IMG/VR virus record: IMGVR_UViG_3300028883_000064
Coordinates: 1 to 48,588 of that record
DNA: 48,588 nt
Source of the DNA: a virus
Direction: 5' to 3' (one strand)
Every line of letters begins with the position of its first letter. The stretch's first letter is position 1. Below are positions 5,364 to 31,812 of the stretch, piece after piece. The translations under genes were made by a program, and so were the position numbers. The notes beneath the pieces were generated by a model. The model worked only from the letters and a program-made list of their open reading frames with translations, searched no databases and was not told the origin of the DNA.

Positions 5364-5658
5364 CAATAGGCTTCACCATTTGGCGACCATCCCAATCGGC
5401 ACCATCCCACCAGTGCCTCCAATGGTACTCACATATAGGAATGTAGTTGATGGTCTTACCTTGGTCGGCTGACTGTGGTGCCATAACAACAGCCACAGTA
5501 TCCCTACCTATGTCGGAACATGGTTGACACTTCTTCTCCTGTTCCACAGGCTCCCACTTATCACAACAGTGTGTACGAGCATTGTTGACTTCAAGATCCT
5601 TTTTTAGATCACAGAAACCGTGTACATTGTGTTGCTTGCAGTTCACACAAGTCTTCAT
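5344..5658 (-). CDS. Cysteine-rich hypothetical protein, 104 aa
   Basis: ATG 5658 sits after GGAGGATAGACG and overlaps the upstream stop as ATGA. An N-terminal cluster MKTCVNCKQHNVHGFCDL and THCCDK, then KCQPCSD and a C-terminal CEYHWRHWWDG, give at least two plausible zinc sites. The tail is tryptophan-rich. No known family recognised; a zinc-stabilised binding protein is the most that can be said. Confidence 0.65.
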   Translation of the reverse strand: MKTCVNCKQHNVHGFCDLKKDLEVNNARTHCCDKWEPVEQEKKCQPCSDIGRDTVAVVMAPQSADQGKTINYIPICEYHWRHWWDGADWDGRQMVKPIDEKKQS

Positions 5659-6146
5659 CGTCTATCCTCCGGCCTCACGAACCTTTCTCTCAGCCTCTCG
5701 TAAATTTCTTCCTCCGTCTTACCTGCTATCCTTTCCTGCCCGTGCCACAGGCCATAACGATTAAGCTTCAGGCCCATCTGTGCAGCCGTCAGCCTCAGGC
5801 CTGAGTTATATCCACCGGAGCCTGTCGCATACAGCCACATAGCGCCCTCGTACTCGGGCAAACATATGTGTACCTCCAACTGTACGCCTTCAAATAAGAT
5901 TGTTTTGCGCGCATGGTCCCACGGGGCACCGTAGTCTTTCTGTATTGCGATGTTCAACATCATACGGTTCTTTTTATCCGCTGTGATCACGAGATCGATA
6001 TCTCCGGCATCTTCTTTCTTGCGCCGGATAGATCCACATAACATATGCCGCATAACCAAGTGGTTATACGGGCTTAGAAATTCTTGAACAATTTGATGGG
6101 CTTCTTCTTCCATTACTCTGCGCCCACCTAACAGTTTACCGCCCAT
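5655..6146 (-). CDS. DNA polymerase X-like nucleotidyltransferase, 163 aa
   Basis: Contains the polymerase-beta palm signature GSIRRKKEDAGDIDLVI: Gly-Ser at 38-39 and the metal-binding pair Asp 49 and Asp 51. The C-terminal part WLYATGSGGYN...LRLTAAQMGLKLN resembles the thumb of family X polymerases. The third carboxylate position, usually Asp, appears as Glu 91 (VQLEVHI). Lyase and fingers domains are missing, as in other short phage versions. Likely role is short gap filling or repair; activity is inferred. Start at ATG 6146 after AGGAGGCAGC, overlapping the sigma-factor gene by 11 bp. Confidence 0.78.
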   Translation of the reverse strand: MGGKLLGGRRVMEEEAHQIVQEFLSPYNHLVMRHMLCGSIRRKKEDAGDIDLVITADKKNRMMLNIAIQKDYGAPWDHARKTILFEGVQLEVHICLPEYEGAMWLYATGSGGYNSGLRLTAAQMGLKLNRYGLWHGQERIAGKTEEEIYERLRERFVRPEDRR

Positions 6147-6750
6147 GCTGCCTCCTTTCTCTTATCATCTTGTCCTTGATCTTAAGAAGCGTTTTCTCTA
6201 TCCACGTTTTGCTTTTCCCTGTGTGCTCGCTTATCTCTACGAGCGTATGCCCCTCTGAGCGGAGGTCTAACACGATCCTTTCGAAGTTTGTTAGCTTCTC
6301 GTAGAACTCGTTGATGAAGTCTCGATCTCCAGGATCAGGTGCCGCTATCTCAAAGGTCAGTTCAACGTCTTCGTCGTCGTTACTATCCCTCCGGTCTATC
6401 GTGAACGCCATTGGTATCCTGAAGTTTCTATCTTTTAATCTTTCAGCCAAGTACCAGTTTGGCAAGTGGACAAGATGATCCTGCTGTAGAAAGTGTTTGA
6501 TGTGCCCGCGTATCGTATTGTTGATATACGCTTTAAAGTTATCCGTTGTCATCCTGCCATTTTTGATATTGTTAATCGCTTTGCATAAGCCTAACAGCGC
6601 CACGCTATGTATATCATCCGCCTTAGTCGGGTAGCCGTGCCCGTAGTATCTAGCGATTTTTTCGGCCAAAGTGAGATAGGCTTCGATCACCGTATCGATC
6701 ACGGAATCATCGCCCTCTTTCAGTTTCCGCAGAGTTGATTCATTAATCAT
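6136..6750 (-). CDS. Phage-encoded sigma-70-family RNA polymerase sigma factor
   Basis: Start set at ATG 6750; a TTG three codons earlier is too close to the GGAG. Region 2 is seen as ADDIHSVALLGLCKAI and FKAYINNTIRGHIKHFL; region 4 as FERIVLDLRSEGHTLVEISEH plus GKSKTWIEKTLLKIKDKM, a helix-turn-helix for the -35 element. It would redirect host RNA polymerase to phage promoters. Region 3 is reduced to an acidic linker (DSNDDEDVELTFE). It is the first gene after a 164-bp spacer that holds a 24-bp palindrome and GATTTGATTC motifs shared with the divergent region at 18.5 kb. Confidence 0.85.
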   Translation of the reverse strand: MINESTLRKLKEGDDSVIDTVIEAYLTLAEKIARYYGHGYPTKADDIHSVALLGLCKAINNIKNGRMTTDNFKAYINNTIRGHIKHFLQQDHLVHLPNWYLAERLKDRNFRIPMAFTIDRRDSNDDEDVELTFEIAAPDPGDRDFINEFYEKLTNFERIVLDLRSEGHTLVEISEHTGKSKTWIEKTLLKIKDKMIRERRQHGR

Positions 6751-6766
6751 TTTCGCCAAGTCTCCA

Positions 6767-6921
6767 GAATCAAATCGAACACTTCGGGCCTGCTGTGCAG
6801 CCCTCTACAATAATGGGATATGGCACCTATTTTTGACGCAAACCCTTGTGGCTCAGGGACTTACAAAAACCTACAAAAATAAGCCACCTAATTAGGTGGC
6901 TTACGTTTGCAGAATCAAATC
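6767..6921 (-). promoter_or_regulatory. Leader region of the sigma-factor operon
   Basis: The 164-bp spacer upstream of the sigma gene. It holds a perfect 24-bp palindrome at 6880-6903 with core CACCTAATTAGGTG preceded by AAGC, and a possible half-site GGGACTTAC around 6857-6865. GATTTGATTC read toward the gene occurs at 6912-6921 and again at 6767-6776, directly before the Shine-Dalgarno. The same elements occur in the same order (palindrome, then GATTTGATTC, then gene start) upstream of the ParB and primase operons. No standard -35/-10 pair is convincing. Confidence 0.75.
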
Positions 6922-9934: not shown

Positions 9935-12259
9935 CTATTTCCCTGCCCAAGAGTCTAGCTTATCGCTCCAGTCAATAGCTAACAAGGGTACATCTTTACG
10001 ATACTCTTCAATGAAAGCTTCTACAGTTTCTCTGATTTCCGGAATCACTAGACTGACAGCAGGACACATGATCTCGTCATGGACATTTAAAGGCTGTACT
10101 CTCCATCTGTTAATGCCTTGTGGTTGCAAGTCCCACAGTCTGCGCTGTAACATTTTACAAAGTTGCGCACCGCTTGACTGTATAACGTGATTACCAGCCG
10201 CTCGCATGTTGGCAGCTTGCACGGCAAACGCCGCTGCGAATAAGGCCGACCGTAAAGCTCCGCACGCAGATTGTTCCCGATCTCTTCGAGTAACTTTAAT
10301 ATGTAGGCTTTGCCAGCGTTTGGGTGGGTCCTCTGCGAGAGTAAACAATGCCTTACAAATCTTATTTTCGAGAGAGAAGTAACGACGGAATCCGAATAGG
10401 CTTTCAATATAGTCTGCCGGTTCATGCCACTCCACCTTAGTTCCGATTCCTCCGGGCTGGCGCATACTGCAAAACATATCGAAGATTTTCTGTCGCTCTT
10501 CACCCCAAACTTTATAGGTTGAAACCCACCGCTGGTAAGCCTCTTCCGCCGCTTCTGCCGTAATGCCGACACGATTAACGAGGGTATATGCCATGCCTCC
10601 ATACAACAATGCGAAAACACCGTTCTTACTTCTTGTGTAAATATCCTTCTCAGCTTCGAGTCCTTTTGTTGCAAGGATTTCTTCATAGCTTTTCCCCGGA
10701 AACAGATATGTTCCGAATAGCCCGTGAATCTTTTTACCTGTCTCTAGCTCATTTCTTAGCTTGGGGTCTTTGTAAACAGCATCAGCCAGATTAACCTCAA
10801 ATCCAGCAAAATCGCCCCCGCACAGAATAAGGCCGCCGTCAGCAAGTAGAAAGCACTCGCGCGTCTCGTTCGCTCGCCGTATGCCCTGGGCGTTGACACC
10901 ACCAGTTCCCGACATGCGAGAAGAACGAGTACCAATGACATTGAGGTCAGCATGAAAGCGGCCAGCCAATAGTAATTTATCATATAGTTCTACCTCTTTC
11001 TGAGCATGTCTTGCATCAAGAATTTCCTGAGCGCGTATTGCGGCCGGATGCTTTGCATCAGATTTAACTAATCCGTCTTCACACTTCTTGCATCCTTGTC
11101 CTTGACAGTCAAGACAAACAGTTTCTTCTTTCCATCTGGCAATCTGTTCAAGGACAGGTCCCTTAGTCGTGATCTTATTATCAACTCGCAGCACGAGTTG
11201 TTCTGTTTCTGATAGGACCTGTTCCATGTAGGTACGGCAGACTGCATGTGAGTTGAAGTTATATCGGCTTTTAACATTTTCAACGAATCCTATTGCTCGC
11301 TTCTTGAGTTCTCTTATTTTCTCTAAATCAAGTTTGAAGCCTCTCCATCTAACGGCACCGACCATACAGGCCAGTTCGGAATCGTCGTCGCCCGGTTGCG
11401 GTGAGCCAAAATGTGTGTAGAGTTCTCTGGTGTACTTGACATCATCACTCGCATATTCTCTGGCCAGTCTGTTGTACGCCCAATGAGTAACATGGACTTT
11501 AATTTTCCCGTAGTCAGGCCAAGCTCCGTTCCATCTACCGGGAACTCCAATAGCTTTAGCGAACGGAGCATATCCAAACTCCTTCGGGAATGATTCCTTT
11601 GGCGGTTCAACATCTGCGAACATCTTAATTGATTCTGTTTTATAGCCTAAGGCATCTTGAGCCAATGCTTTAAGCGCACTGGAAGGTGCAAACTTGAGTA
11701 CTACATCCTTGAAGTCTACTTCAATATTCCCCATCTCATCTCTAACATCATAGACATCCCACCGCCTACTTGGGTCTGCTTTTCTAGCAAAGTAAACATC
11801 ATTAAGCGGGATACGTCTATCTAGTTCAGCGCACAGTTCCCAAGCTAAAGCTGTTGGTACTCGTTTGATTCTTATATCATCACGGTTCATTGTCGATTGG
11901 TATGGCCCTTTACGTGCATGTAACATAATGTCACAAGCCGCAACAGGCTTGATGCAGTTACCGAATCTACCTTTCTCTTCATATTCGGCATACTCATCAA
12001 TATAGTCTATTGGGTCAACACTACAGTCTGGAAACTGTATTAATGTTGTATACGTCTGACAAATGTGGAACCAGTCAAAAGAAAGATTGAAACCACATAC
12101 TTCACTATCAACGATTTTCTCGATCAATTCTAATGTTTCTTCAACTGGACTGGTAAAGACTGAGTGCAGTTCAATAGGCCCATCGTCCTCCGCCCATTGG
12201 AGGAGTACTATCGGACCAGTCAATCCGCAAGTCTCAGTGTCTATATACACAATCGACAT
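9935..12259 (-). CDS. Family A DNA polymerase with 3'-5' exonuclease
   Basis: A 774-residue replicative polymerase. Exonuclease motifs: IDTET (Asp 7, Glu 9), NLSFD (Asp 62) and YASDD (Tyr 269, Asp 273), so proofreading looks intact. Polymerase motif A is GGDFAGFEV (Asp 483); the O helix is RSKNGVFALLYG with Arg 543, Lys 545 and Phe 549 at the position equivalent to E. coli 762; motif C is VHDE (His 727, Asp 728, Glu 729). An unusual CLDCQGQGCKKC zinc-knuckle-like insert lies at 382-393 between exonuclease and palm. No 5' nuclease domain. Start TAATG-overlaps the HNH gene. Confidence 0.95.
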   Translation of the reverse strand: MSIVYIDTETCGLTGPIVLLQWAEDDGPIELHSVFTSPVEETLELIEKIVDSEVCGFNLSFDWFHICQTYTTLIQFPDCSVDPIDYIDEYAEYEEKGRFGNCIKPVAACDIMLHARKGPYQSTMNRDDIRIKRVPTALAWELCAELDRRIPLNDVYFARKADPSRRWDVYDVRDEMGNIEVDFKDVVLKFAPSSALKALAQDALGYKTESIKMFADVEPPKESFPKEFGYAPFAKAIGVPGRWNGAWPDYGKIKVHVTHWAYNRLAREYASDDVKYTRELYTHFGSPQPGDDDSELACMVGAVRWRGFKLDLEKIRELKKRAIGFVENVKSRYNFNSHAVCRTYMEQVLSETEQLVLRVDNKITTKGPVLEQIARWKEETVCLDCQGQGCKKCEDGLVKSDAKHPAAIRAQEILDARHAQKEVELYDKLLLAGRFHADLNVIGTRSSRMSGTGGVNAQGIRRANETRECFLLADGGLILCGGDFAGFEVNLADAVYKDPKLRNELETGKKIHGLFGTYLFPGKSYEEILATKGLEAEKDIYTRSKNGVFALLYGGMAYTLVNRVGITAEAAEEAYQRWVSTYKVWGEERQKIFDMFCSMRQPGGIGTKVEWHEPADYIESLFGFRRYFSLENKICKALFTLAEDPPKRWQSLHIKVTRRDREQSACGALRSALFAAAFAVQAANMRAAGNHVIQSSGAQLCKMLQRRLWDLQPQGINRWRVQPLNVHDEIMCPAVSLVIPEIRETVEAFIEEYRKDVPLLAIDWSDKLDSWAGK

Positions 12260-12711
12260 TAATATTCTCCGTGGATTACCCTGAAAATAACATTTTGGCT
12301 AACTCCAAAATTTGTTGCTAATTCTCGTTGGGTAATACCAAAATATCTTTGTCTTTTGATTTCTTCTTGTTGTTCTACACTAAGAATCTTTTTCATTTGT
12401 TGCCCACTTTGATATGGTAATCTTCCTCTACCTTTATTGTCTCTGTCTTCACTATTATCTTTATGTGTACCTAGGAATAAGTGCATAGGATTAACACAAT
12501 TTGGAGTATCGCAGGTATGGCACACTAGCATACCATCAGGTATCTTACTTTTATATTGTTTATAAGATACCCTATGTGCTTTTTCTAATTTACCATTTAA
12601 TCTGAATAATCCATATCCAGAAGTATCACATGATCCACTCCACAACCAACACCCTGTTGGGTTATAGAATGTAAGATTTAGAAATCTTTCTAAATCTTTA
12701 GCTTCCATCAC
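12259..12711 (-). CDS. HNH homing endonuclease (HNH_3 type), free-standing
   Basis: A 150-residue HNH nuclease: GCWLWSGSCDTSGYG, then AHRVSYKQY, then LVCHTCDTPNCVNPMHLFLG, the classic His-Asn-His zinc-free or zinc-supported core, followed by GTHKDN. The C-terminal QRELATNFGVSQNVIFRVI is a helix-turn-helix for site recognition. Such genes cut intron- or intein-less alleles and spread. It is AT-rich compared with the polymerase it precedes (TAATG overlap) and with the ParB gene upstream, consistent with insertion. It does not interrupt any visible gene. Confidence 0.9.
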   Translation of the reverse strand: MMEAKDLERFLNLTFYNPTGCWLWSGSCDTSGYGLFRLNGKLEKAHRVSYKQYKSKIPDGMLVCHTCDTPNCVNPMHLFLGTHKDNSEDRDNKGRGRLPYQSGQQMKKILSVEQQEEIKRQRYFGITQRELATNFGVSQNVIFRVIHGEY

Positions 12712-13553
12712 TCCTTAACCTCCGGCTTCAGATATTCTAATCCATTCTTCTTTGCGAATGTATCAAGGCTACTGTAAAGATCTAACGCACTAATTTCGCC
12801 AGCAGCCCATGCCAGACAACGAGTCCAGATACCATTGCCAATACCTGAAGTCTGGATATGTTCCATCATCTCAAAAATCTCAGCACGGGTGTGGTGTATC
12901 TTGGCTGTCTTCTTTTTCCTATGAGGATTAACACTAATAGTTCCGCGGCCTTTGGCCCTAGCCTCTTTGATTTCGCGAGCAGCAGCAAAAGCTGCTTCTT
13001 CTCCGCCTCGCCTAAAGTGGCTATATACCTCACGAACCTGTGTCTGTGTAATGTTCTTAAGTGCTACCTGATGCTGGATTTCTATAGGCAGCTCAAGAAG
13101 CATATAACGAATCTGTACCCACCCACGTGACACACCAAGCTTTCTGGCACAAGAATCCTCGCCAATGCCAAGGTTTTTAAGATTCTGTAATGCCTTAGCT
13201 TCCTGTAGTACATTAAGATCTTGACGCTGAAGATTCTCAGCCAGATTAAAGAATCGTGCATCAATATCATTAACCATATCCGCACGAATGATTGCCGAAA
13301 TCGTGGGACGCTCAAGAACCTTATGGGCCATACGCCTTCTGTAACCGGCGATAAGCCTATACTTGAAGCCTGTTTCCTTTTGTTTCTCTTCCTCGTAAAG
13401 TGTTACTACAACCGGCTGGATAAGCCCACGACTCTCGATATCCTTAGCTAAGGATACAACATCAATCGGGGTTATCTTGCCTCGACAATTGAACGAATCA
13501 TCAGCATGGATCTCACTAAGTGGAATATCAACTACAGTCATTTCGCCTGACAT
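12708..13553 (-). CDS. ParB/Srx-domain DNA-binding protein
   Basis: Start at ATG 13553, seven bases after GGAG and one base past the helicase stop. The ParB N-terminal domain is clear: GLIQPVVVTL, LIAGYRRRMAHKVL (counterpart of the GERRxRA box) and NLAENLQRQDLNVLQEA (box II). A helix-turn-helix follows, CARKLGVSRGWVQIRYML. The C-terminal 100 residues are specific. ParB proteins bind palindromic sites and may spread by CTP-driven clamping; phage members act in partition, replication or transcription. No ParA ATPase is seen nearby. One of two ParB-like genes here. Confidence 0.85.
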   Translation of the reverse strand: MSGEMTVVDIPLSEIHADDSFNCRGKITPIDVVSLAKDIESRGLIQPVVVTLYEEEKQKETGFKYRLIAGYRRRMAHKVLERPTISAIIRADMVNDIDARFFNLAENLQRQDLNVLQEAKALQNLKNLGIGEDSCARKLGVSRGWVQIRYMLLELPIEIQHQVALKNITQTQVREVYSHFRRGGEEAAFAAAREIKEARAKGRGTISVNPHRKKKTAKIHHTRAEIFEMMEHIQTSGIGNGIWTRCLAWAAGEISALDLYSSLDTFAKKNGLEYLKPEVKE

Positions 13554-13554
13554 A

Positions 13555-15489
13555 CTACTCTCCTTCAAAAGCTTGTTTAAGTTCACCCATCGAGATACTC
13601 TGCAACTTCCTCTTCTTATTAAGATTGTCCAATACAATCTTATCAGTTGGTAATACAATCAAGTCCTTAATTACCAAGCCTCGATTATCATCCATGCCCA
13701 TACGATGAGCACGATCTTCAGCTTGCATTCTTGCTTCACCCTTGAAGCTATTACTGTAGAACAATGCAGTCGGGGACGCATGAAGTGTTAGCGCCATGCC
13801 ACCAGCCTCAGGATGCCCAACGAAACATACCCGAGGATACTTATCTAACATTTCCTGTCGCTTCGGGTGTGTTCTATCCATACTGATAAGAAGATCATTA
13901 GGATTAACGGGATCATCAGAGTTGGGATGATAACCATGATATCCCCTACCGTCCACTCTGAGGACATACCACCCACAAGATTTAGCCATATTAGTAAGTC
14001 TGTCAATAGTACCGGTAAAACCACCCCACACGATATAACGACCAATGTCTTCATGATTAGACAAGTCATTCTTGAAGTATTCATCTTTGGGACTCCCTAC
14101 TTCAACAACATTACGTTTGTACTTAGGCGTTTGACCTGCGCCTCCGCATAGATCACATGTAACTTCTTTGTCCTCAAAATTCTGTGCTTGAATGTCCAAA
14201 GGGGCCATATAATCGACAGCCGTTGTTGGAACCTTAATAACTCTTGTTCCACTTCCGTTACAGTTCGGACAAGTGATATCATCTGATTTGATATCTTTAT
14301 ACTGGAACCCATCAGCTAGCTCCCTACACAGAGTGATTGCCGTAATCGCTCTTGATGCATTTGCTGTAATTAGCTTAGCCGCTCGGAGCATATCAACTGT
14401 TGGCGTAAGCTGTATGAGTTCGTATTGTTTCTCAGGGAGATCAAGACAGTCCTTTTTGAACTTAACGAGAACTAATCCTTTCATTCTCCTATAAAGATAC
14501 TTAACCTCATTTTTTGATTTTACCCAATCATGGCCCTCGCCACAGGCCACAGCAAAAGTTTTATGTACATCATCATCCTTGAGCTTACCGCATAACTTGC
14601 ATTTATTCTCATCATCTAGCCATGACACTACATGAGGATACACGCCGCCAGTTATATTATTCTCACGCTTCTCAATAATACACAAGCGAGCTTTAAACTT
14701 ATGTATATTACCCTCACGTATGAAACCCGGACAAGCAACCTCTGCTTGGTGCCACCAGTCAACAGGACTCTTAGGTGCTGGCGTACCTGACATTTCTAGG
14801 ATATAAGAATCATCTCCGTACTCTTCTCGCATTGCTTCGGCTAGATGATATGCTGCTTGTGATCGTTGAGATGTTGGAGTCTTGATCTTAGAACTTTCAT
14901 CAAAGACTACCATCTTTGGTAGTACCTCGGCACCACTCCAATTTTTCATGTAGCTCGTCATACGCTCATATGTAAACATACGAGGTCTGACTTTAGAATC
15001 CCATTTGTCCAGCTCTAAACTGACAGCCTTGATACCTGACTTTGGGCCAACATACCATGCTTCATAGTCTTCGAGGCCCAAGGCTTCCATAACCTCGATA
15101 GCTACGAGCGTTTTACCTGTTCCCATTTCTCCAGCAATGATACACCGCTTATAAGTTAATACGTGCCTAGCCATTTCTAGCTGGTGCTCACGCAATGGCC
15201 TTAGAGAATTATACTCTACTAAGGGCTTATCATATGCTGTATATGGGTTACGATTAAGAAGATGGTCTAGAGCAAACTTGTTCCTGCTTGTATTGGCTAT
15301 GCTCCACATTTTGCTAGGAGGATCATCGTAGCCGTGATAATTGGCTCCTTCCATCGCCTTGATTTCGGCAATCAACTTCTTGTTATAACCGAACTTAACA
15401 TATATGCGCTTGCCTTTGTATATGAGCTTACCTGGCTTAAGATATCTACCTACTCGAAATTTAACTTCCTCGGTGCGGGCGTCTGACAT
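13555..15489 (-). CDS. SNF2-type DEAD/DEAH-like helicase
   Basis: A 644-residue SF2 ATPase. The N-terminal 80 residues resemble a HARP-like annealing-helicase domain (YDDPPSKMWSI). Walker A is GEMGTGKT (120-127), motif II is VVFDESSKI (Asp 197, Glu 198), motif III is MSGTPAPKSP, and motif VI is QAEDRAHRMG (589-598). Two DnaJ-like zinc modules, CPNCNGSG (407) and CDLCGGAG (445), lie in the insertion between lobes, with another Cys pair KCKLCGK (297). Likely remodels forks or DNA-protein complexes during replication. Start ATG 15489 follows a small ORF. Confidence 0.9.
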   Translation of the reverse strand: MSDARTEEVKFRVGRYLKPGKLIYKGKRIYVKFGYNKKLIAEIKAMEGANYHGYDDPPSKMWSIANTSRNKFALDHLLNRNPYTAYDKPLVEYNSLRPLREHQLEMARHVLTYKRCIIAGEMGTGKTLVAIEVMEALGLEDYEAWYVGPKSGIKAVSLELDKWDSKVRPRMFTYERMTSYMKNWSGAEVLPKMVVFDESSKIKTPTSQRSQAAYHLAEAMREEYGDDSYILEMSGTPAPKSPVDWWHQAEVACPGFIREGNIHKFKARLCIIEKRENNITGGVYPHVVSWLDDENKCKLCGKLKDDDVHKTFAVACGEGHDWVKSKNEVKYLYRRMKGLVLVKFKKDCLDLPEKQYELIQLTPTVDMLRAAKLITANASRAITAITLCRELADGFQYKDIKSDDITCPNCNGSGTRVIKVPTTAVDYMAPLDIQAQNFEDKEVTCDLCGGAGQTPKYKRNVVEVGSPKDEYFKNDLSNHEDIGRYIVWGGFTGTIDRLTNMAKSCGWYVLRVDGRGYHGYHPNSDDPVNPNDLLISMDRTHPKRQEMLDKYPRVCFVGHPEAGGMALTLHASPTALFYSNSFKGEARMQAEDRAHRMGMDDNRGLVIKDLIVLPTDKIVLDNLNKKRKLQSISMGELKQAFEGE

Positions 15490-17514: not shown

Positions 17515-18504
17515 TTACTCGGACGCTTCCTCGCCAGCAGCAGCCAACTTCTTCGCCTCATCCGCCGCCTCTTGCGCCTTCTTGGCAGCGTTCTCGGCCT
17601 TCTTCTTGGCTCTCTCAGCCTTGCGCTTCTTCGCAGCTTCCGCACGCTCGGCCTTGCGAGCTTCGTCCTTCGCCTTCTGATCCTCGATCGATTTGGGATC
17701 AAGATGAAGAACCCACTTGATACCAAGCTGGAAACCTTCGACTGGAGTATTTACGCCAGTGGCCGCCACAAGCTCGACAGCCGCATCACCCGACTCCAGT
17801 TGAGTCTTGATGTCCTTCAGCTTCTGCATGAAGGCGACAGGCACAAACTCCTGAGGCGCAGCGTCTTCGCCCTTACGCTTCGCTTCCTTGATTTCCTTGA
17901 CACGGCTCTGCACAGCAGGGACGAACTCATCGGGAGCCATAGTCATGGCACGATCCACGAAATCGGACATTTCTTCCGTGGGCAGTTTCGCCAGAGCGTA
18001 AGCATTCGCCAGACCAATCTTGCCTTCGTCGATAAGATTAACAATCGTCTCATTGGTAATCTTGGTCAGGTCCAGACGCGCCTTGATCCACTGTGAGGAC
18101 TTACCGATCTTGCTGGCAAGCTCCGCTTCAGTCATCAGCGGGTTACGGCTCAGGATACGCTTGAGCTGCTGCGTATACTGCATAGGCTTCGTTTCGATCT
18201 TGTGAATATTCGCCATGATCTGAGCTTCGAGAACCTTGTCATCGTCAAGATTCACAACATCAACATTGATCTCGCTCAGACCGGCATCCTTGGCAGCAGA
18301 GAAGCGGTGCAGACCATCAATAAGTTCAAAGAACTCATCACCCGATTCTTCATCAGTCTTTGCACGGACAGTGATAGCGCCAAGGAAACCCTTTTCCTTA
18401 ATCGAGGCCACCAGCCCCAAATAATCCTCCGACTTCCTATCGACAGTACGGAGTGCAACAGGATTCTCTCGAATAGTATCAAGAGAAATAACTTTAAGTG
18501 CCAT
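17515..18504 (-). CDS. ParB-like protein with Ala/Lys-rich coiled-coil tail
   Basis: First gene left of the divergent control region; ATG 18504 follows GAGGAG. The ParB-type domain is visible in ASIKEKGFLGAITV, LIDGLHRFSAAKDAGL (in the position of GERRxRA, with a changed motif) and MANIHKIETKPMQYTQQL. A helix-turn-helix follows: ELASKIGKSSQWIKARLDLT. The last 60 residues are a charged Ala-rich helix (AERAKKKAENAAKKAQEAA). Being adjacent to large palindromes, it could bind them as a partition or regulatory protein. Codon use resembles the major capsid gene. Second ParB-like gene of the window. Confidence 0.82.
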   Translation of the reverse strand: MALKVISLDTIRENPVALRTVDRKSEDYLGLVASIKEKGFLGAITVRAKTDEESGDEFFELIDGLHRFSAAKDAGLSEINVDVVNLDDDKVLEAQIMANIHKIETKPMQYTQQLKRILSRNPLMTEAELASKIGKSSQWIKARLDLTKITNETIVNLIDEGKIGLANAYALAKLPTEEMSDFVDRAMTMAPDEFVPAVQSRVKEIKEAKRKGEDAAPQEFVPVAFMQKLKDIKTQLESGDAAVELVAATGVNTPVEGFQLGIKWVLHLDPKSIEDQKAKDEARKAERAEAAKKRKAERAKKKAENAAKKAQEAADEAKKLAAAGEEASE

Positions 18505-18555
18505 TCTGATTTTCTCCTCACGTGATTAGTAATCATTGTTCTAGACAATACAAAA

Positions 18556-18574
18556 GAATCAAATCGATTTGATT
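18556..18574. promoter_or_regulatory. A element: 18-bp palindrome
   Basis: AATCAAATCGATTTGATT (18557-18574) is a perfect palindrome about 52 bp upstream of the ParB ATG. Its half GATTTGATTC, read toward the gene, recurs in the leaders of the primase and sigma operons. Confidence 0.75.
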
Positions 18575-18622
18575 ACTGCATGAATTGCCCTCCCTTCAAT
18601 AGATAGTGTTCCGCAACTACCA

Positions 18623-18650
18623 TAGTCCCGAATGGACGAAAATTTCCACC
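18623..18650. repeat. B element, left arm of 28-bp inverted repeat
   Basis: Begins TAGTCCCGAATGGAC and ends AAATTTCCACC. Its reverse complement occurs at 18816-18843 with 26 of 28 bases matching. Confidence 0.85.
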
Positions 18651-18656
18651 AAATTC

Positions 18657-18684
18657 CGTAAGTCACCTAATTAGGTGACTTACG
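18657..18684. promoter_or_regulatory. C element: perfect 28-bp palindrome
   Basis: Core GTCACCTAATTAGGTGAC with further matching arms to CG at both ends. A perfect 24-bp relative lies at 6880-6903 and an imperfect one at 18783-18808. It is a likely binding site of a dimeric regulator, possibly one of the ParB-like proteins. A hairpin in RNA is also possible, but no T-run follows. Confidence 0.85.
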
Positions 18685-18782
18685 ACGGGGCTGAATGAAT
18701 TGACTTCGCCCTTATATTATATATTGAATTCAACTATAATATATTTTCATACCCAAAAAATAAACAAACAGAGGAAGGAAAC

Positions 18783-18808
18783 GTAAGCAACCTAATTAGG
18801 TGACTTAC
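18783..18808. promoter_or_regulatory. C' element: imperfect 26-bp palindrome
   Basis: Core ACCTAATTAGGT with arms GTAAGCA and TGACTTAC that mismatch at two adjacent positions. Lies 125 bp centre-to-centre from the perfect C palindrome and mirrors it about 18733. Confidence 0.8.
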
Positions 18809-18815
18809 ATTTTTA

Positions 18816-18843
18816 GGTGGAAATTTCTGTCCATTCGGGACTA
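18816..18843. repeat. B' element, right arm of 28-bp inverted repeat
   Basis: GGTGGAAATTTCTGTCCATT followed by CGGGACTA, the inverted copy of 18623-18650 with two mismatches in the middle. Confidence 0.85.
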
Positions 18844-18865
18844 GATATAGGGGATAGTGCAAATA

Positions 18866-18893
18866 GATTTGATTCTCATGGAACAATCAAATC
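18866..18893 (+). promoter_or_regulatory. A' element: inverted repeat in the primase leader
   Basis: GATTTGATT (18866-18874) and AATCAAATC (18885-18893) are 9-base inverted arms separated by 10 bases, ending 26 bases before the GTG start. The mRNA could form a hairpin just ahead of the GGAGAGG ribosome binding site, or the DNA could bind the same regulator as the A element. Confidence 0.7.
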
Positions 18894-18919
18894 GTATTGC
18901 TGGAGAGGATTAAGAAATC

Positions 18920-21900
18920 GTGCCAACTCGTACTGAAGCAATTAAGCGTTTCCTATCTGCGAAGACACATGCCGATTTAGCCAATCTATATAACTATGGC
19001 ATGGAGTGCCAAGTCAATGTAGCTCAAGACGGTGGCGAGCGTGTTGATTCTGAGTTTGAAGGAAGACGGTGGCATGGCTGGACAGATGGGCTAACTACAT
19101 GGAAAAGTTTTAGAGTACCTTGGAACGCTTCAACTGTTCCTGAGTATGACGACAAGGAGATGAGCTTCGACCTTGTTGCGCACGCGGAAGCAATAGGTAT
19201 GACAGGGTGGGACTGGCAGAGTAAAGTATCAAGGTGGGTAGCTTATGACTTTGATGCTATAATCGGCCACTCGGACAAACACGCTAACAAACTTACAAAC
19301 GAAGAACTTGAAGAAGTTAAGAAAGCTGCATATGGTATCGAGTGGATAACGATTCGTAAATCTACCTCAGGAACCGGGATACATTTATATGTTTACCTTC
19401 CTAGCCACATTAAAACTAATAATCACCATGAACATGCCGCACTTGCCAGAGCTATACTTGGCAAGATGTCAGCATTGACAGGGTTCGATTTCCATAGCAA
19501 AATAGACGCTTGCGGCGGGAACATGTGGGTATGGCACCGCAAGATGGGAGGAACAGATGGGCTTACACTTATCAAGGAAGGTAAAGTACTTGATGAAGTG
19601 CCTCCGAATTGGAAGGATCATATTAAAGTTGTTTCTGGTAAGCGTCGTAAGAACTTACCTCAGAATATTGAAGCAAGTGGACGAGGGGATCTCTTTGAGG
19701 AACTCGCTGGTCAACGCCCGAAAACTCCGCTTGAAGAAGACCACAAGACTCTAATAACTTATCTCCAGGAGAATAATGCTTTATGGTGGTGGGACCAAGA
19801 TCACCATATGCTAGTAACACATTCCTACTGGTTACAGAAGGCACATGAAGATTTACAACTTAAGGGTGTCTTCAAAACGAACAGCAAAGGCAGTAACCTT
19901 AATGAGCAAAATTGTTTTTGCTATCCTCTTAGGCGGGGTGCCTGGGTTATTCGACGGTTTACACCGGGAGTCCAAGAGGATGATTCATGGGATCAAGATG
20001 GTGCAGGTTGGACACGTTGCTACTTAAATAAGGAGCCGAATCTTGCTACGGCTGCGCGTACTTTTGGCGGTCTTGAAGATCCTTCTGGTGGTTTCATCTT
20101 TCGTGAAGCTGAGGTGGCTGAGAAGGCATCTGCACTCTTGGGCGTTCATCTTAAGGTTGGAAATTCATTACGTTCTAGAGAAACTAAACTCAAACAACAT
20201 AAAGACGGTAGACTAGTTGTTACCGTCGAACGCAAAGAGATGGACCGTGCCGACGACATGCAAGGGTGGTTGGCAAAGAAGAAAGACTGGATTAAGATAT
20301 TCAATACGCAGCTAGGCACACCAGAGGAACCAGAGTCAGGCAATTATGATGATCTTGTAAGGCACCTTGTAACGGAGACAAATGAAGATTACGGTTGGAT
20401 GATTAAATCCGACACTGACTGGCGCTCAGAACCTTTGTCACACGTGCGTGTTGCGCTAGGCTCCTTGGGCCTTAAACATACTGAGATTACTACAATCCTT
20501 GGGTCGTCAGTATTTAAATGCTGGAGAGTAGTTAATAAGCCTTTCCAGCCTGAGTACCCCGGCGACCGGGAATGGAACCGTAACGCTGCGCAGTTGAGAT
20601 TCTTACCATCTGAAAACAAGGAGAAACTCAACTACCCAACTTGGATGAAGATACTAGATCACTGTGGTCAGGGTCTTAATGAAGCAATAAGGAACAGTGC
20701 ATGGTGCCAAGCTAATGGTATCCTAACAGGTGGGGATTACCTCAAGTGTTGGGTGGCTAGTCTGTTTCAAGAGCCTGAGGAACCACTACCATATCTCTTC
20801 ATGTATGGACCACAGAACAGCGGCAAATCGATCTTCCATGAGTCTCTTAACTTACTATTTACTAAGGGATACAAGAGGGCCGATGCAGCACTGATTAATG
20901 CATCTGGGTTCAATGGAGAGCTTGAAGGTGCTATTACCTGTGTCGTTGAGGAAACAGATCTTAGAAGAGATAGACAGGCGTATAACCGTATTAAAGATTG
21001 GGTCACAAGTCGTGAGTTACTTATCCACTGTAAAGGTAAAACTCCATATCACATCCCTAACACGACCCATTGGATTCACTGCTTACCAAAAAATGCGTGG
21101 ATTTTAACTTCTGAAGGTCCAAGGCAGTTAGCTGATTTAATTAATAAGCCAGTTACAGTTATTGTAAACGGGCAAAAATATAATACAAAAGGATTCTTTA
21201 AAACAGGCGTAAGAGATATATATACTGTAACTACTTCAAGTGGTCGGATTCTTGAAGCTACCGCTGACCATCTTGTGAAATGCAGTTTTGATGGATTAAA
21301 ATATTGGAAAGAAGTAGGTAAGTTATCTGATAATGATAGGTTATGTTTAAATAATCATGTTAACGCCTCTTGGCATTGTGATGATAGCACATTTGAAGAT
21401 GGGTATTTATTAGGCTGGCTACTCGGCGATGGCACTATTTTTAAAAGACAACATAAGAAGGAGCAAGTAGTCAAGATATATATCTACCCGGATGATCATA
21501 GCCAGCTACAATTACTTGAAGAGTGTTTTGGTAATAATGATTTCAGTATAACTTTACGTAAAGATGGTGCATATTGTCTAACTAGCAAATATCTATACTC
21601 ATTAGTTAGAAACTATAATATAGAAAAAAGAAAAATAACTAAAAATATTCAAGAAGCATCTGTAGAATTTCAAAGTGGCCTCATTAGCGGGCTATTCGAT
21701 ACTGACGGTACAGCTACTTTAGAAAGACACACAATCGCTCTTTACCAATCTGATTTAGGGATATTACGATCAATACAACAAATACTTCTTAATATAGGAA
21801 TCAATAGTCATATATACTTAGCCAGACCAAGTAGGACTTTAAGGGTACACAAGAATAAAAAAGATACCGTAAGCAAGCCCTCATATCAACTGGTAATACG

Positions 21901-22654
21901 TAAAAGAAGTAATTTAAAACTCTTTTACGAACGTATAGGATTCAGTAATCCTAGAAAACAAAAACTCTTAAAACAGATTCTTAATTCATGGACACGTAAA
22001 GCTATTGAAGAAGACTACACGGACAAGGTATCAACAGTAGTATACAGTCGTACAGAAGATGTTTATGATATAACTGTACCTAGTGTCCATTGCTTCGATG
22101 CTAATGGTTTTATTGTGCATAACTGTAGTAATGACCATCAAGCTTGCCCCGTATTCTCAGGGGATACACGGATTACAATGTGCTATGTGGATATGCTGGA
22201 ACCGATGGAGCTTATCCCCAAGAAACAAATCATCCCGATGCTGGAAAAAGAGGCACCGGATTTCTTGGCAGCAGTCTTACAACTTGAGATACCGCCTTCA
22301 AATGATAGACTTAACGTACCGGTCATTGCGACCGAAGACAAGCACCTAGCACAAGAACTGAATCAGACAGACCTTGAAAGATTCCTGTCTGAGAAATGTA
22401 TGTTTGCCACAGGCCACCAGATTCTATTTGCAGAACTCTATGATAAGTTCTTAGAGTGGCTTGATCCAAATGAGATACATAAGTGGAGCAAGATACGTGT
22501 AGGCAGGAGTTTCCCGCCACAGTATCCTAAAGGTAAAGCTCGAAAGGATGGACAAATCTACGTTGGAAACATCACATGGTCAGGTGTTGAAGTAAGCAGG
22601 GAACCTAGACCAAAGCTAACGATTAAAGACGGTTACTTAGTTCCGGTAGAATAA
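18920..22654 (+). CDS. Primase-polymerase/SF3-like helicase with an intein
   Basis: Starts at GTG 18920 after GGAGAGG (spacing about 12). The 1244-residue precursor has an N-terminal archaeo-eukaryotic primase domain: YDFDA (Asp 110, Asp 112) and RKSTSGTGIHLY (Ser 150, His 155). A linker leads to a helicase with Walker A GPQNSGKS (630-637), Walker B VVEETD (Glu 677, 678) and a motif C region THWIH-CSNDHQACPVFSGD that is split by the intein at 721-1068. Splicing gives about 896 residues. It would open DNA and lay primers for Pol A. First gene of the rightward operon. Confidence 0.92.
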   Translation: MPTRTEAIKRFLSAKTHADLANLYNYGMECQVNVAQDGGERVDSEFEGRRWHGWTDGLTTWKSFRVPWNASTVPEYDDKEMSFDLVAHAEAIGMTGWDWQSKVSRWVAYDFDAIIGHSDKHANKLTNEELEEVKKAAYGIEWITIRKSTSGTGIHLYVYLPSHIKTNNHHEHAALARAILGKMSALTGFDFHSKIDACGGNMWVWHRKMGGTDGLTLIKEGKVLDEVPPNWKDHIKVVSGKRRKNLPQNIEASGRGDLFEELAGQRPKTPLEEDHKTLITYLQENNALWWWDQDHHMLVTHSYWLQKAHEDLQLKGVFKTNSKGSNLNEQNCFCYPLRRGAWVIRRFTPGVQEDDSWDQDGAGWTRCYLNKEPNLATAARTFGGLEDPSGGFIFREAEVAEKASALLGVHLKVGNSLRSRETKLKQHKDGRLVVTVERKEMDRADDMQGWLAKKKDWIKIFNTQLGTPEEPESGNYDDLVRHLVTETNEDYGWMIKSDTDWRSEPLSHVRVALGSLGLKHTEITTILGSSVFKCWRVVNKPFQPEYPGDREWNRNAAQLRFLPSENKEKLNYPTWMKILDHCGQGLNEAIRNSAWCQANGILTGGDYLKCWVASLFQEPEEPLPYLFMYGPQNSGKSIFHESLNLLFTKGYKRADAALINASGFNGELEGAITCVVEETDLRRDRQAYNRIKDWVTSRELLIHCKGKTPYHIPNTTHWIHCLPKNAWILTSEGPRQLADLINKPVTVIVNGQKYNTKGFFKTGVRDIYTVTTSSGRILEATADHLVKCSFDGLKYWKEVGKLSDNDRLCLNNHVNASWHCDDSTFEDGYLLGWLLGDGTIFKRQHKKEQVVKIYIYPDDHSQLQLLEECFGNNDFSITLRKDGAYCLTSKYLYSLVRNYNIEKRKITKNIQEASVEFQSGLISGLFDTDGTATLERHTIALYQSDLGILRSIQQILLNIGINSHIYLARPSRTLRVHKNKKDTVSKPSYQLVIRKRSNLKLFYERIGFSNPRKQKLLKQILNSWTRKAIEEDYTDKVSTVVYSRTEDVYDITVPSVHCFDANGFIVHNCSNDHQACPVFSGDTRITMCYVDMLEPMELIPKKQIIPMLEKEAPDFLAAVLQLEIPPSNDRLNVPVIATEDKHLAQELNQTDLERFLSEKCMFATGHQILFAELYDKFLEWLDPNEIHKWSKIRVGRSFPPQYPKGKARKDGQIYVGNITWSGVEVSREPRPKLTIKDGYLVPVE
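21080..22123 (+). mobile_element. Intein with LAGLIDADG homing endonuclease
   Basis: In-frame insert of 348 residues within the helicase. It begins CLPKNAWILT (Cys nucleophile, precursor residue 721), has block B TADHLVKC with its conserved His, two LAGLIDADG motifs (YLLGWLLGDGTI and LISGLFDTDGTA), and ends FDANGFIVHN (His-Asn) before Cys as the +1 residue. All splicing residues look intact. Removal joins WIH to CSND and restores helicase motif C. It is markedly AT-rich compared with the flanking extein DNA, pointing to horizontal origin. Confidence 0.95.
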
Positions 22655-29778: not shown

Positions 29779-30843
29779 TTAAATAAAGTTGAGATGATCG
29801 GGCGGATTCCTTAGATCAAGCATAACCTGATTACGCTTCTCGTATAAACAAGTACACTTGCATTTCTTACGTGGATCGAAATCCTTTCTCCACACAGCCA
29901 TTTGCTGCCACAGCTTATCTAAAGGTAGTTCAGTAATATTACCTATTAAGCCAGGCAATGTTCCCGTCAGCGTGCAACAGGTATAAACACTCCCGTCCCC
30001 GGTTATTACGCATAGCAAATCTTTTGTGCCACAGTAATCGTAGTCTTGCTGCTTAGACGAGAAGCGTAAGTTACTTAGTCTTTCCTCGAACAAGTCCACA
30101 ACTTGGAAATGCATATCATTCAATGATTGCAGTTCATCTAACTGCTGACGTACCTCACGTTTAGCATCAACATCTAAGATGTCTGCACCCTTAGGTGTGA
30201 AGGCTACACTTACACGAACATTATCGACGCCAACGTCCTTGGCTCGGAGACAACAATCTTGTAGACCTTTATAGTTCTCATCGGTAATAACGAACCCGAT
30301 GCCTATAGCCTGATTTTTCCGCCTTTCGACCAGCCTTTCAATCCCCTTCCAAGCCATTGTCCAATGACTTTCGGGACAGCATCGAATCCTACAATAGTCC
30401 TCCTTATTACCTGCATCGACCGATACCCTCGCCCACTGTAGTTTCGTACTATATAACAAATCCGCAGTTGCCTCTTTAAGGAGGGTTCCATTAGTCACCA
30501 GAGCCATTTCTATTGGATGCTCCTGTAATTCTTCTAGTAACTTATCTATATGCGGATAAGCTAAAGGCTCCCCGCCACCTGTCAATTCGATAGCTTTAAC
30601 ACCCATGTAGTCTATTTCACATATCAGATCTTTCATACGATCCCATGGTAACGAGCTACTAGCATCAAAATGTTTTGAGTTCTTCCAGTTGTCCATACGG
30701 TAGCTACAGAAATGGCAGTTCTGATTACAGAAGTTCTGTGGCATTAGATGTATGAAAACCGGGAATAGCTCATGGCTACAATGCGTCTTGAAAGCTTGGA
30801 CTAGTCTCGGATGATAGATTACTTTATCAGTTGCGTAACTCAC
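29779..30843 (-). CDS. Radical SAM enzyme with SPASM-like Cys tail
   Basis: I favour GTG 30843 (GTGA overlap with the upstream stop, GGGGAG before it) over a GTG four codons earlier; 354 residues. CNQNCHFC (Cys 39, 43, 46) binds the 4Fe-4S cluster; ELTGGGEPLAYP is the SAM-contact GGE motif. Later cysteines (DYCGTKDLLC, VYTCCTLTG, KKCKCTC) match SPASM-type auxiliary clusters. Such enzymes modify peptides or sugars. Placed among five sugar transferases, it may make or attach an unusual sugar or modify a virion protein; this is context only. Confidence 0.88.
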   Translation of the reverse strand: MSYATDKVIYHPRLVQAFKTHCSHELFPVFIHLMPQNFCNQNCHFCSYRMDNWKNSKHFDASSSLPWDRMKDLICEIDYMGVKAIELTGGGEPLAYPHIDKLLEELQEHPIEMALVTNGTLLKEATADLLYSTKLQWARVSVDAGNKEDYCRIRCCPESHWTMAWKGIERLVERRKNQAIGIGFVITDENYKGLQDCCLRAKDVGVDNVRVSVAFTPKGADILDVDAKREVRQQLDELQSLNDMHFQVVDLFEERLSNLRFSSKQQDYDYCGTKDLLCVITGDGSVYTCCTLTGTLPGLIGNITELPLDKLWQQMAVWRKDFDPRKKCKCTCLYEKRNQVMLDLRNPPDHLNFI

Positions 30844-31559
30844 AATACTCCCCACTCTCTACCAACATTACGGACTACTGTACCCTTACGTTCTTCATAC
30901 AACTTTTTATTGATTGCTAACCTACCAGCAGTACGCTTATCATGGCAATAACGTGGATGATAAAGATGAACGCATCTTGCGTCAACCTTAGTGTAATGGC
31001 AACCATTGGCTTGGAGCCTTTCTATTAAATCATCATCATCGTATGATTGACCAACAAAATCTTCATCATACCCTCTTATTTCTACAAACCTATCTATGTC
31101 CATTGCCATAAGGAAAGGCAGTTCAGTCTTAAGTGGCTGACATTCTGCATACTTAACTTCATTATCTAGGTTAGGCAGATAACGATTGTCCATATCGTCC
31201 TTACCTACTGGTATGGCTAAAGCATACGGGTCTGCTTCAACAGCTGCAATCATAGGTGTAAGACAATCATCATGGTGCCACATCTCAGCACATGTTAATA
31301 CCACAATATCATACTCAAGACTATACTTAACACCAATATTAAGAGCATATCCAGGCACTCGCCATTGAGCGTGCTTATTGTTTCCTGTAAATAGATACTC
31401 CGCTTTATAATGATCACAAATATATTGCACATTACCTTCGTCACCATCATTAAGAACTAGGATTCCCACATCAGGATTCCAGCGTCTAATAGACTCAAGC
31501 CCTAACTGTAGGAGTTGATCTCTATTGAATGTAGTTACAAGAACTCTTGTATTAGTCAT
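30840..31559 (-). CDS. GT-A glycosyltransferase with galactosyltransferase-like C-terminus
   Basis: Start ATG 31559 after AAGGAGGCAAG; 239 residues. TRVLVTTFNRDQLLQLGLES and ILVLNDGDEGNV are the GT-A donor site; IRGYDEDFVGQSYDDDDLIE is the Glyco_transf_7C-type motif (GYDExFxGxxxDDDL). The C-terminal CVHLYHPRYCHDK may add metal or acceptor contacts. Soluble; acceptor unknown. First enzyme of the sugar cluster in the direction of transcription. Confidence 0.85.
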   Translation of the reverse strand: MTNTRVLVTTFNRDQLLQLGLESIRRWNPDVGILVLNDGDEGNVQYICDHYKAEYLFTGNNKHAQWRVPGYALNIGVKYSLEYDIVVLTCAEMWHHDDCLTPMIAAVEADPYALAIPVGKDDMDNRYLPNLDNEVKYAECQPLKTELPFLMAMDIDRFVEIRGYDEDFVGQSYDDDDLIERLQANGCHYTKVDARCVHLYHPRYCHDKRTAGRLAINKKLYEERKGTVVRNVGREWGVL

Positions 31560-31812
31560 CTTGCCTCCTTGGGCATTTATTCTTACAACTCCAAGGCCGT
31601 ACCATAACATCTAACTCTAGGCACCACAACCTTGCAACCTTACCACAACAAGGTCTGTGAAAGAACCGCACCTCTCTCTTATCACAGGGTTCCAGAGTGA
31701 GATGATAAAGGTATGGGTCTGTTAAATCTTGTGTGTACCCCTCAGGGGCAGCCGGAGGCTTGCCCCTTCGGGGTGCACAAATTGTATCAGCGGTGAGTTT
31801 TCTGAAGTGCAT
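31552..31812 (-). CDS. Cys-rich hypothetical protein, 86 aa
   Basis: ATG 31812 lies within the end of the lipoprotein gene; the preceding TTG is less likely. The sequence has a Pro/Arg-rich start (CAPRRGKPPAAPEG) and several cysteines (LEPCDKREVRFFHRPCC, WSCKNKCP). No domain recognised. It bridges the lysis-like genes and the sugar cluster. Confidence 0.5.
   Translation of the reverse strand: MHFRKLTADTICAPRRGKPPAAPEGYTQDLTDPYLYHLTLEPCDKREVRFFHRPCCGKVARLWCLELDVMVRPWSCKNKCPRRQDD

Follow-up and report, generated by a model that had tools for sequence, protein, structure and literature searches.

Control of two divergent operons from a shared intergenic region by repeated operators is known from phages (lambda OR type), and cascades of the SPO1 and T4 type combine a phage sigma factor with an early host-type promoter and later phage-specific promoters. 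Regulator roles are known for ParB-like proteins as well: in the RK2 KorB/KorA regulon, the ParB-family protein KorB acts on repeated operators at several promoters, including those of replication and of its own operon (PMC11790492), and ParB-like regulators are covered in a survey (PMC12704722). In replicons with AEP/SF3 primase-helicases of the pRN1 type, a large symmetrical DNA element linked to the primase-helicase gene belongs to the origin (PMC4234260). The region described here resembles each of these systems in part. It lies within the window, i.e., the whole stretch of viral DNA that was analysed (48,588 nucleotides), between two divergently transcribed operons. The region is real, conserved and unusually symmetrical, and it is most likely a twin promoter-operator: judged from its sequence, we assign a probability of about 0.7 to the reading that it consists of two phage promoters arranged back to back and served by a common set of operators. 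The features of the window are:

6136-6759, minus strand: gene of the phage sigma factor, sigma-70/ECF superfamily (60 bits, cut-off 42.9)
6766-6921, minus strand: control region of the sigma gene, with A (6911-6921), C (6879-6904), a C-like repeat (about 6838-6864) and A (6766-6776)
12708-13658, minus strand: ParB-like protein 2, the second candidate binder of the dyad sites
17515-18504, minus strand: ParB-like protein 1, with ParB_N and HTH_ParB domains and a ParB/Noc/KorB fold; its gene opens the left operon
18557-18574, no strand: left A element, AATCAAATCGATTTGATT, a perfect 18-nt palindrome in the putative 5' leader of the ParB operon
18623-18650, minus strand: left B element, promoter-like arm core directed to the ParB operon
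18657-18684, no strand: left C palindrome, CGTAAGTCACCTAATTAGGTGACTTACG, perfect over 28 nt
18685-18781, no strand: AT-rich spacer between the arms, containing TTGAATTCAA, candidate DNA-opening site if the region is an origin
18783-18808, no strand: right C palindrome, GTAAGCAACCTAATTAGGTGACTTAC, two changes from a palindrome
18816-18843, plus strand: right B element, promoter-like arm core directed to the primase-helicase operon
18860-18894, no strand: right A element, split into half-sites 18860-18874 and 18885-18894, with GATTTGATT (18866-18874) and AATCAAATC (18885-18893)
18920-22654, plus strand: primase-helicase gene, DUF5906, with a P4-family-like helicase part, interrupted by an intein

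The two arms (18623-18684 and 18782-18843) comprise 62 nt each, are 85% complementary and are spaced by 97 nt around an axis at about 18733. Each arm is composed of a B element on the outside and a C palindrome on the inside, and both arms are flanked by the outer A elements, TGATTTGATT. The left and right B elements match in 26 of 28 positions. Aligned with gaps, the two halves reach a score of 97, compared to at most 39 at about 300 random places of the window and up to 35 for Markov shuffles of the dyad region. The initial annotation had given coordinates for B and C, a match count for B, a common axis and flanking A elements, and all of these were borne out by a direct recheck of the window; it was also right that the region separates a ParB-like gene from the primase-helicase gene, and this divergence is found in relatives too. 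It had furthermore described an AT-rich middle holding TTGAATTCAA. The DNA between the arms is indeed 69% AT, with a 60-bp stretch at 18713 that is among the three most AT-rich of the window, and TTGAATTCAA (18724-18733) is located in this middle, near the axis but not on it, with an offset of about 4.5 bp.

For the model of ParB-like protein 1 the significant fold matches include structures of ParB, Noc and KorB (8qa9, 8qa8), which places it within the KorB fold. The primase-helicase resembles P4-family helicases, and a weak match to archaeo-eukaryotic primases was found in a relative. About residues 722-1083 of the window's primase-helicase product are an intein with a LAGLIDADG homing endonuclease domain, and most relatives encode the protein uninterrupted with about 900 amino acids. 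Directly after the sigma gene, a 163-amino-acid protein with matches to the palm and thumb of DNA polymerase beta is encoded (5655-6146, minus strand); it is small and polX-like, and the same phage also has PolA. Two genes at 29779-31610, minus strand, sit in an otherwise late-looking group of genes: one encodes a radical-SAM domain protein (phrog_1802 and others), the other, next to it, a protein without assigned function. The second ParB-like gene carries in-frame stops over the matched stretch in L112 (contig of L043; six) and L102 (contig of L041; two), which may reflect decay, insertion or sequence error.

A nucleotide search of 50,697 phage records with the dyad region yielded no near relative and nothing useful, and a protein search of phage records yielded distant ParB matches only and otherwise mostly matches to the intein. 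Relatives were collected from IMG/VR with the ParB-like protein and then with its alignment, resulting in about 70 loci; no relatives were found in the cellular genomes searched with the ParB alignment, and no cultured member of this phage clade was found. The exact C pattern has one chance-like match in IMG/VR, in another contig. A 15-mer of B has 16 matches there, which were taken as chance as the rest of B is absent in all of them. In almost all loci the ParB gene diverges from a primase-helicase gene that is about 900 codons long, the two being separated by a gap of usually 350-550 bp with a G+C content that is mostly below that of the own contig. The axis is kept at this same gene junction in the relatives, an outcome that by the refuting condition of the initial annotation favours the observation: the best dyad in the gap beats all six Markov shuffles in 61 of the 69 usable IMG/VR loci (near-duplicates counted), a comparison that with six shuffles is weak for an individual locus but not for the combined result. 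The dyad scores are typically 45-115, against about 25 for shuffles. The arm sequence varies between genomes, while the two arms agree within a genome. Over 51 distinct gaps, the median arm score within a genome is 69, and that of same-side arms between genomes is 25, which equals chance level; in 25 of these gaps no relative's arm matches either arm as well as the two match one another. Going by the sequences, such likeness within a genome would be expected because the same proteins must read both arms, or from recombination (gene conversion) that homogenises them.

Eight contigs were extended in further pieces and each was searched with its own gap. The arm core was found once more, at 30-41 kb, in L014, L020, L030 and L072 (E values of 3e-5 to 8e-8), there without A elements, and the downstream genes in L014, L020 and L072 include those of the terminase large subunit and the portal. 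Searching upstream of terminase revealed the arm core in 5 of 19 contigs (L014, L020, L035, L051, L072), located 0.7-1.1 kb upstream, directed to the operon and above shuffles; the other 14 contigs showed nothing above shuffles in this search, and in L030 the single arm core lies farther upstream of terminase. In six relatives, further operons of the genome also carry the arm core as a directional element. At late operons it is present as one oriented copy, which suggests that each arm is directional in its own right. The window's B is known only from the two dyad copies; a late promoter would fall beyond the right end of the window. Beside the late-end copy of the arm core in L030 (contig L144), units resembling TTTTTCTAAAAAA form a tandem array at about 11750-11850.

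The arms were rejected as host sigma-70 promoters, as their -35/-10 hexamers score no better than shuffles (mean of 7.24 vs. 6.97). The motif CGTA is present on the outward strand of both arms in 17 of 33 genomes, its reverse complement in 5, and shuffles reach at most 7. CGTA resembles the -10 elements of some ECF sigma factors. The window's B does not carry CGTA at the presumed -10, and some of the cases, such as that of the window, lie within C rather than B.

The A element is shared by the dyad and the sigma-operon regions. In the DNA upstream of ParB (39.8 kb), its nonamer GATTTGATT or the complement was counted 120 times, vs. 27 times in 1.06 Mb elsewhere in the loci, i.e., it is about 118-fold denser. 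On the ParB side, A is usually located 45-125 bp before the start codon, with a mirror copy near the primase start, and its half-sites are spaced by 0 to about 29 nt. Many of the copies outside the gap are pairs near the sigma gene. In the window, a copy of A together with C (three mismatches) at 6766-6921, upstream of the sigma gene, had been overlooked by the initial annotation; the degenerate C-like repeat at about 6838-6864 was read by eye. The sigma gene or operon is accompanied by A in the window, L013, L014, L027, L030, L031, L043, L046 and L065, and C elements are present at the sigma region in the window and L031. In L062 a different inverted repeat occupies the position of A, and the same variant is found again 12.3 kb away near the sigma gene; the element has changed at both places, which suggests a single trans-acting reader. 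A role of A solely as an RNA hairpin is disfavoured, because A is also found upstream of the sigma-operon promoter.

A pair of A elements brackets a consensus-like sigma-70 promoter in sense direction in L013 (two places), L014, L043, L072 and L020. For these six promoters from five relatives 0 of 100 shuffles were as good. The sigma-70 matrices, here and for the dyad arms, were generic ones and are valid solely relative to shuffles. In L072 and at the second place of L013, the first gene after the promoter is one other than the sigma gene. By the same comparison no outstanding sigma-70 promoter was found between the A elements of L027, L030 and L031 or in the sigma region of the window, where 82 of 100 shuffles were as good. 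The second A-bracketed promoter of L013 (L131, 15850-16250) shares 84 identical bp with that at the sigma gene of the contig and is located after an apparent tRNA gene, as judged by eye, and before another operon. L149, the contig of L072, has a DnaA box, TGTGGATAA, at about 11145-11246, flanked by an A element on either side and next to a consensus-like sigma-70 promoter.

In the proposed twin promoter-operator, each arm, C followed by B, would act as an outward promoter unit, one directed to the operon of ParB, helicase and polymerase and the other to the primase-helicase operon. B would most likely be read by host RNA polymerase carrying the ECF-like sigma factor of the phage. A, present in both leaders and around the sigma-operon promoter, would most likely be the operator of a phage DNA-binding protein that would switch early and middle transcription together, and C, immediately preceding B, might bind an activator or a repressor. 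Host sigma-70 would transcribe the sigma operon from its A-bracketed promoter, then the phage sigma factor would fire the B promoters in both dyad arms and the one at the late operon, and the A-binding protein would finally turn down the promoters marked by A, the late promoter, without A, staying on. The cascade would run from host polymerase via phage sigma to the replication operons and the late operon, with A on early and middle promoters only, and A and C look like operators of an early-to-middle switch. The earlier suggestion of a master operator for both operons is well supported by the clade-wide symmetry, the recurrence of the elements at the sigma operon and the arm core at some late operons. 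The single protein assumed to bind there is probably too few: A, B and C are distributed differently, so that at least two factors are likely.

Other readings were weighed against the twin promoter-operator. We consider the chance close to negligible that the symmetry is a functionless by-product of inverted duplication or assembly; the likeness of the arms and the lack of a cultured relative would fit, but the same junction is symmetrical in independent contigs from many metagenomes despite quite different sequences. Very improbable is also the centromere that the initial annotation had proposed, at which ParB-like protein 1 would load at C or A in the manner of parS and segregate or compact the phage DNA. 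A ParB-like gene with the ParB/Noc/KorB fold adjoins and palindromes of 26-28 nt occur in three copies in the window, but the sites are located at promoters and no ParA family match was found in the window and 24 relatives, 25 clade records that may be incomplete, while the positive control was matched in 14 of 14 control genomes. In the same 25 records no tyrosine integrase was found, and together with the absence of relatives from the cellular genomes this makes a lytic life likely, which also argues against a centromere. As a special form of the twin promoter-operator, ParB-like protein 1 could repress globally, loading at A (or C) and sliding as a clamp to the promoters, as in a KorB-like regulon, which we regard as rather doubtful. 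KorB structures are among the significant fold matches, operators near the replication, own and regulator operons recall RK2 (PMC11790492), and position 138 in the recognition helix of ParB-like protein 1 ranks with the columns that show the strongest association with A variants. However, this association is confounded by kinship, the same A element is kept by distant ParBs with quite different helices, and the wide range of half-site spacing is unusual for a rigid dimer site. The recognition helix of ParB-like protein 2 is similar over both classes of A in the co-variation comparison. Judged by its modelled fold, ParB-like protein 1 is a fair candidate binder of A or C.

That the region is primarily a replication origin, at which binding of an initiator to the repeats is followed by opening of the AT-rich centre and loading of the primase-helicase, is conceivable at somewhat less than even odds, and we rate origin function, alone or in addition to the promoter role, likewise. 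As initiator, the primase-helicase itself, the ParB-like protein or, in one subclade, host DnaA come into consideration, and the region may be both origin and twin promoter. Perfect TTATCCACA DnaA boxes are present in the gap of L023 (three of three), L024 (two of two; L025 has the same values) and L026 (three of three), i.e., the gap holds all DnaA boxes of the analysed stretch of these loci. The boxes occupy the primase side, with a weak dyad there. The low G+C content of the gap in most relatives also suits an origin, and the P4-family-like primase-helicase gene adjoins almost throughout; the subclade with DnaA boxes, the AT-rich centre and the adjoining primase-helicase make an origin plausible for the clade, and to this extent the origin named in the initial annotation stands. 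Against it, the window's own gap contains no DnaA boxes: of the hallmarks of a DnaA origin, the window shows the AT-rich stretch but neither a box cluster nor a skew switch apart from the coding strand. The GC-skew check that had been proposed found no switch beyond the coding-strand effect in the window; minus-strand genes have a third-position GC skew of 0.131 to the left and 0.120 to the right of the dyad, which gives no replication signal, and GC skew was rejected as origin evidence as it follows the coding strand. Moreover, single arm cores are also found at late operons, as expected for a directional unit rather than for a dyad serving an origin only, and the DnaA boxes may serve transcription. 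The twin promoter-operator is compatible with both the origin and the KorB-like reading, and they can hold together. Only tentatively do we suggest that one mirror-symmetric element is origin and twin promoter of the whole clade, its halves being homogenised in each lineage during sequence turnover, and that in one sublineage the phage-specific primase-side half was replaced by host DnaA boxes.

For this phage clade, the analysis provides a draft regulatory plan with likely early, middle and late promoters and the elements that mark them. The arms represent a natural case of concerted change in two promoter-like copies about 200 bp apart, the co-evolution of sigma factor with promoter and of regulator with operator can be read from dozens of genomes, and a short clonable stretch has been identified for a direct test of origin function. 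A literature search on mirror-image divergent phage promoters found nothing relevant in the library that was searched. As in the RK2 regulon (PMC11790492), a ParB-family protein is encoded and repeated putative operators recur at several promoters, including those of replication and of its own operon; the operators here differ in being mirror-symmetric around one axis and shared with a phage sigma operon, no ParA homologue was found, and the phage ParB is a candidate binder only, from sequence and fold. With the lambda OR type the region shares two divergent operons, one intergenic region and repeated operators, whereas here a whole promoter-like unit is present as an inverted duplicate whose copies change in concert, and no integrase was seen. 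With pRN1 (PMC4234260) it shares a large symmetrical DNA element linked to a primase-helicase gene, which in pRN1 is a 100-nt stem-loop downstream of the gene and here a spaced upstream dyad with promoter-like arms that faces two operons. As in cascades of the SPO1 and T4 type, a sigma factor is encoded by the phage and host-type early promoters would be followed by phage-specific ones; in contrast to these, the proposed middle promoters form a mirror pair that shares its operators with the sigma operon.
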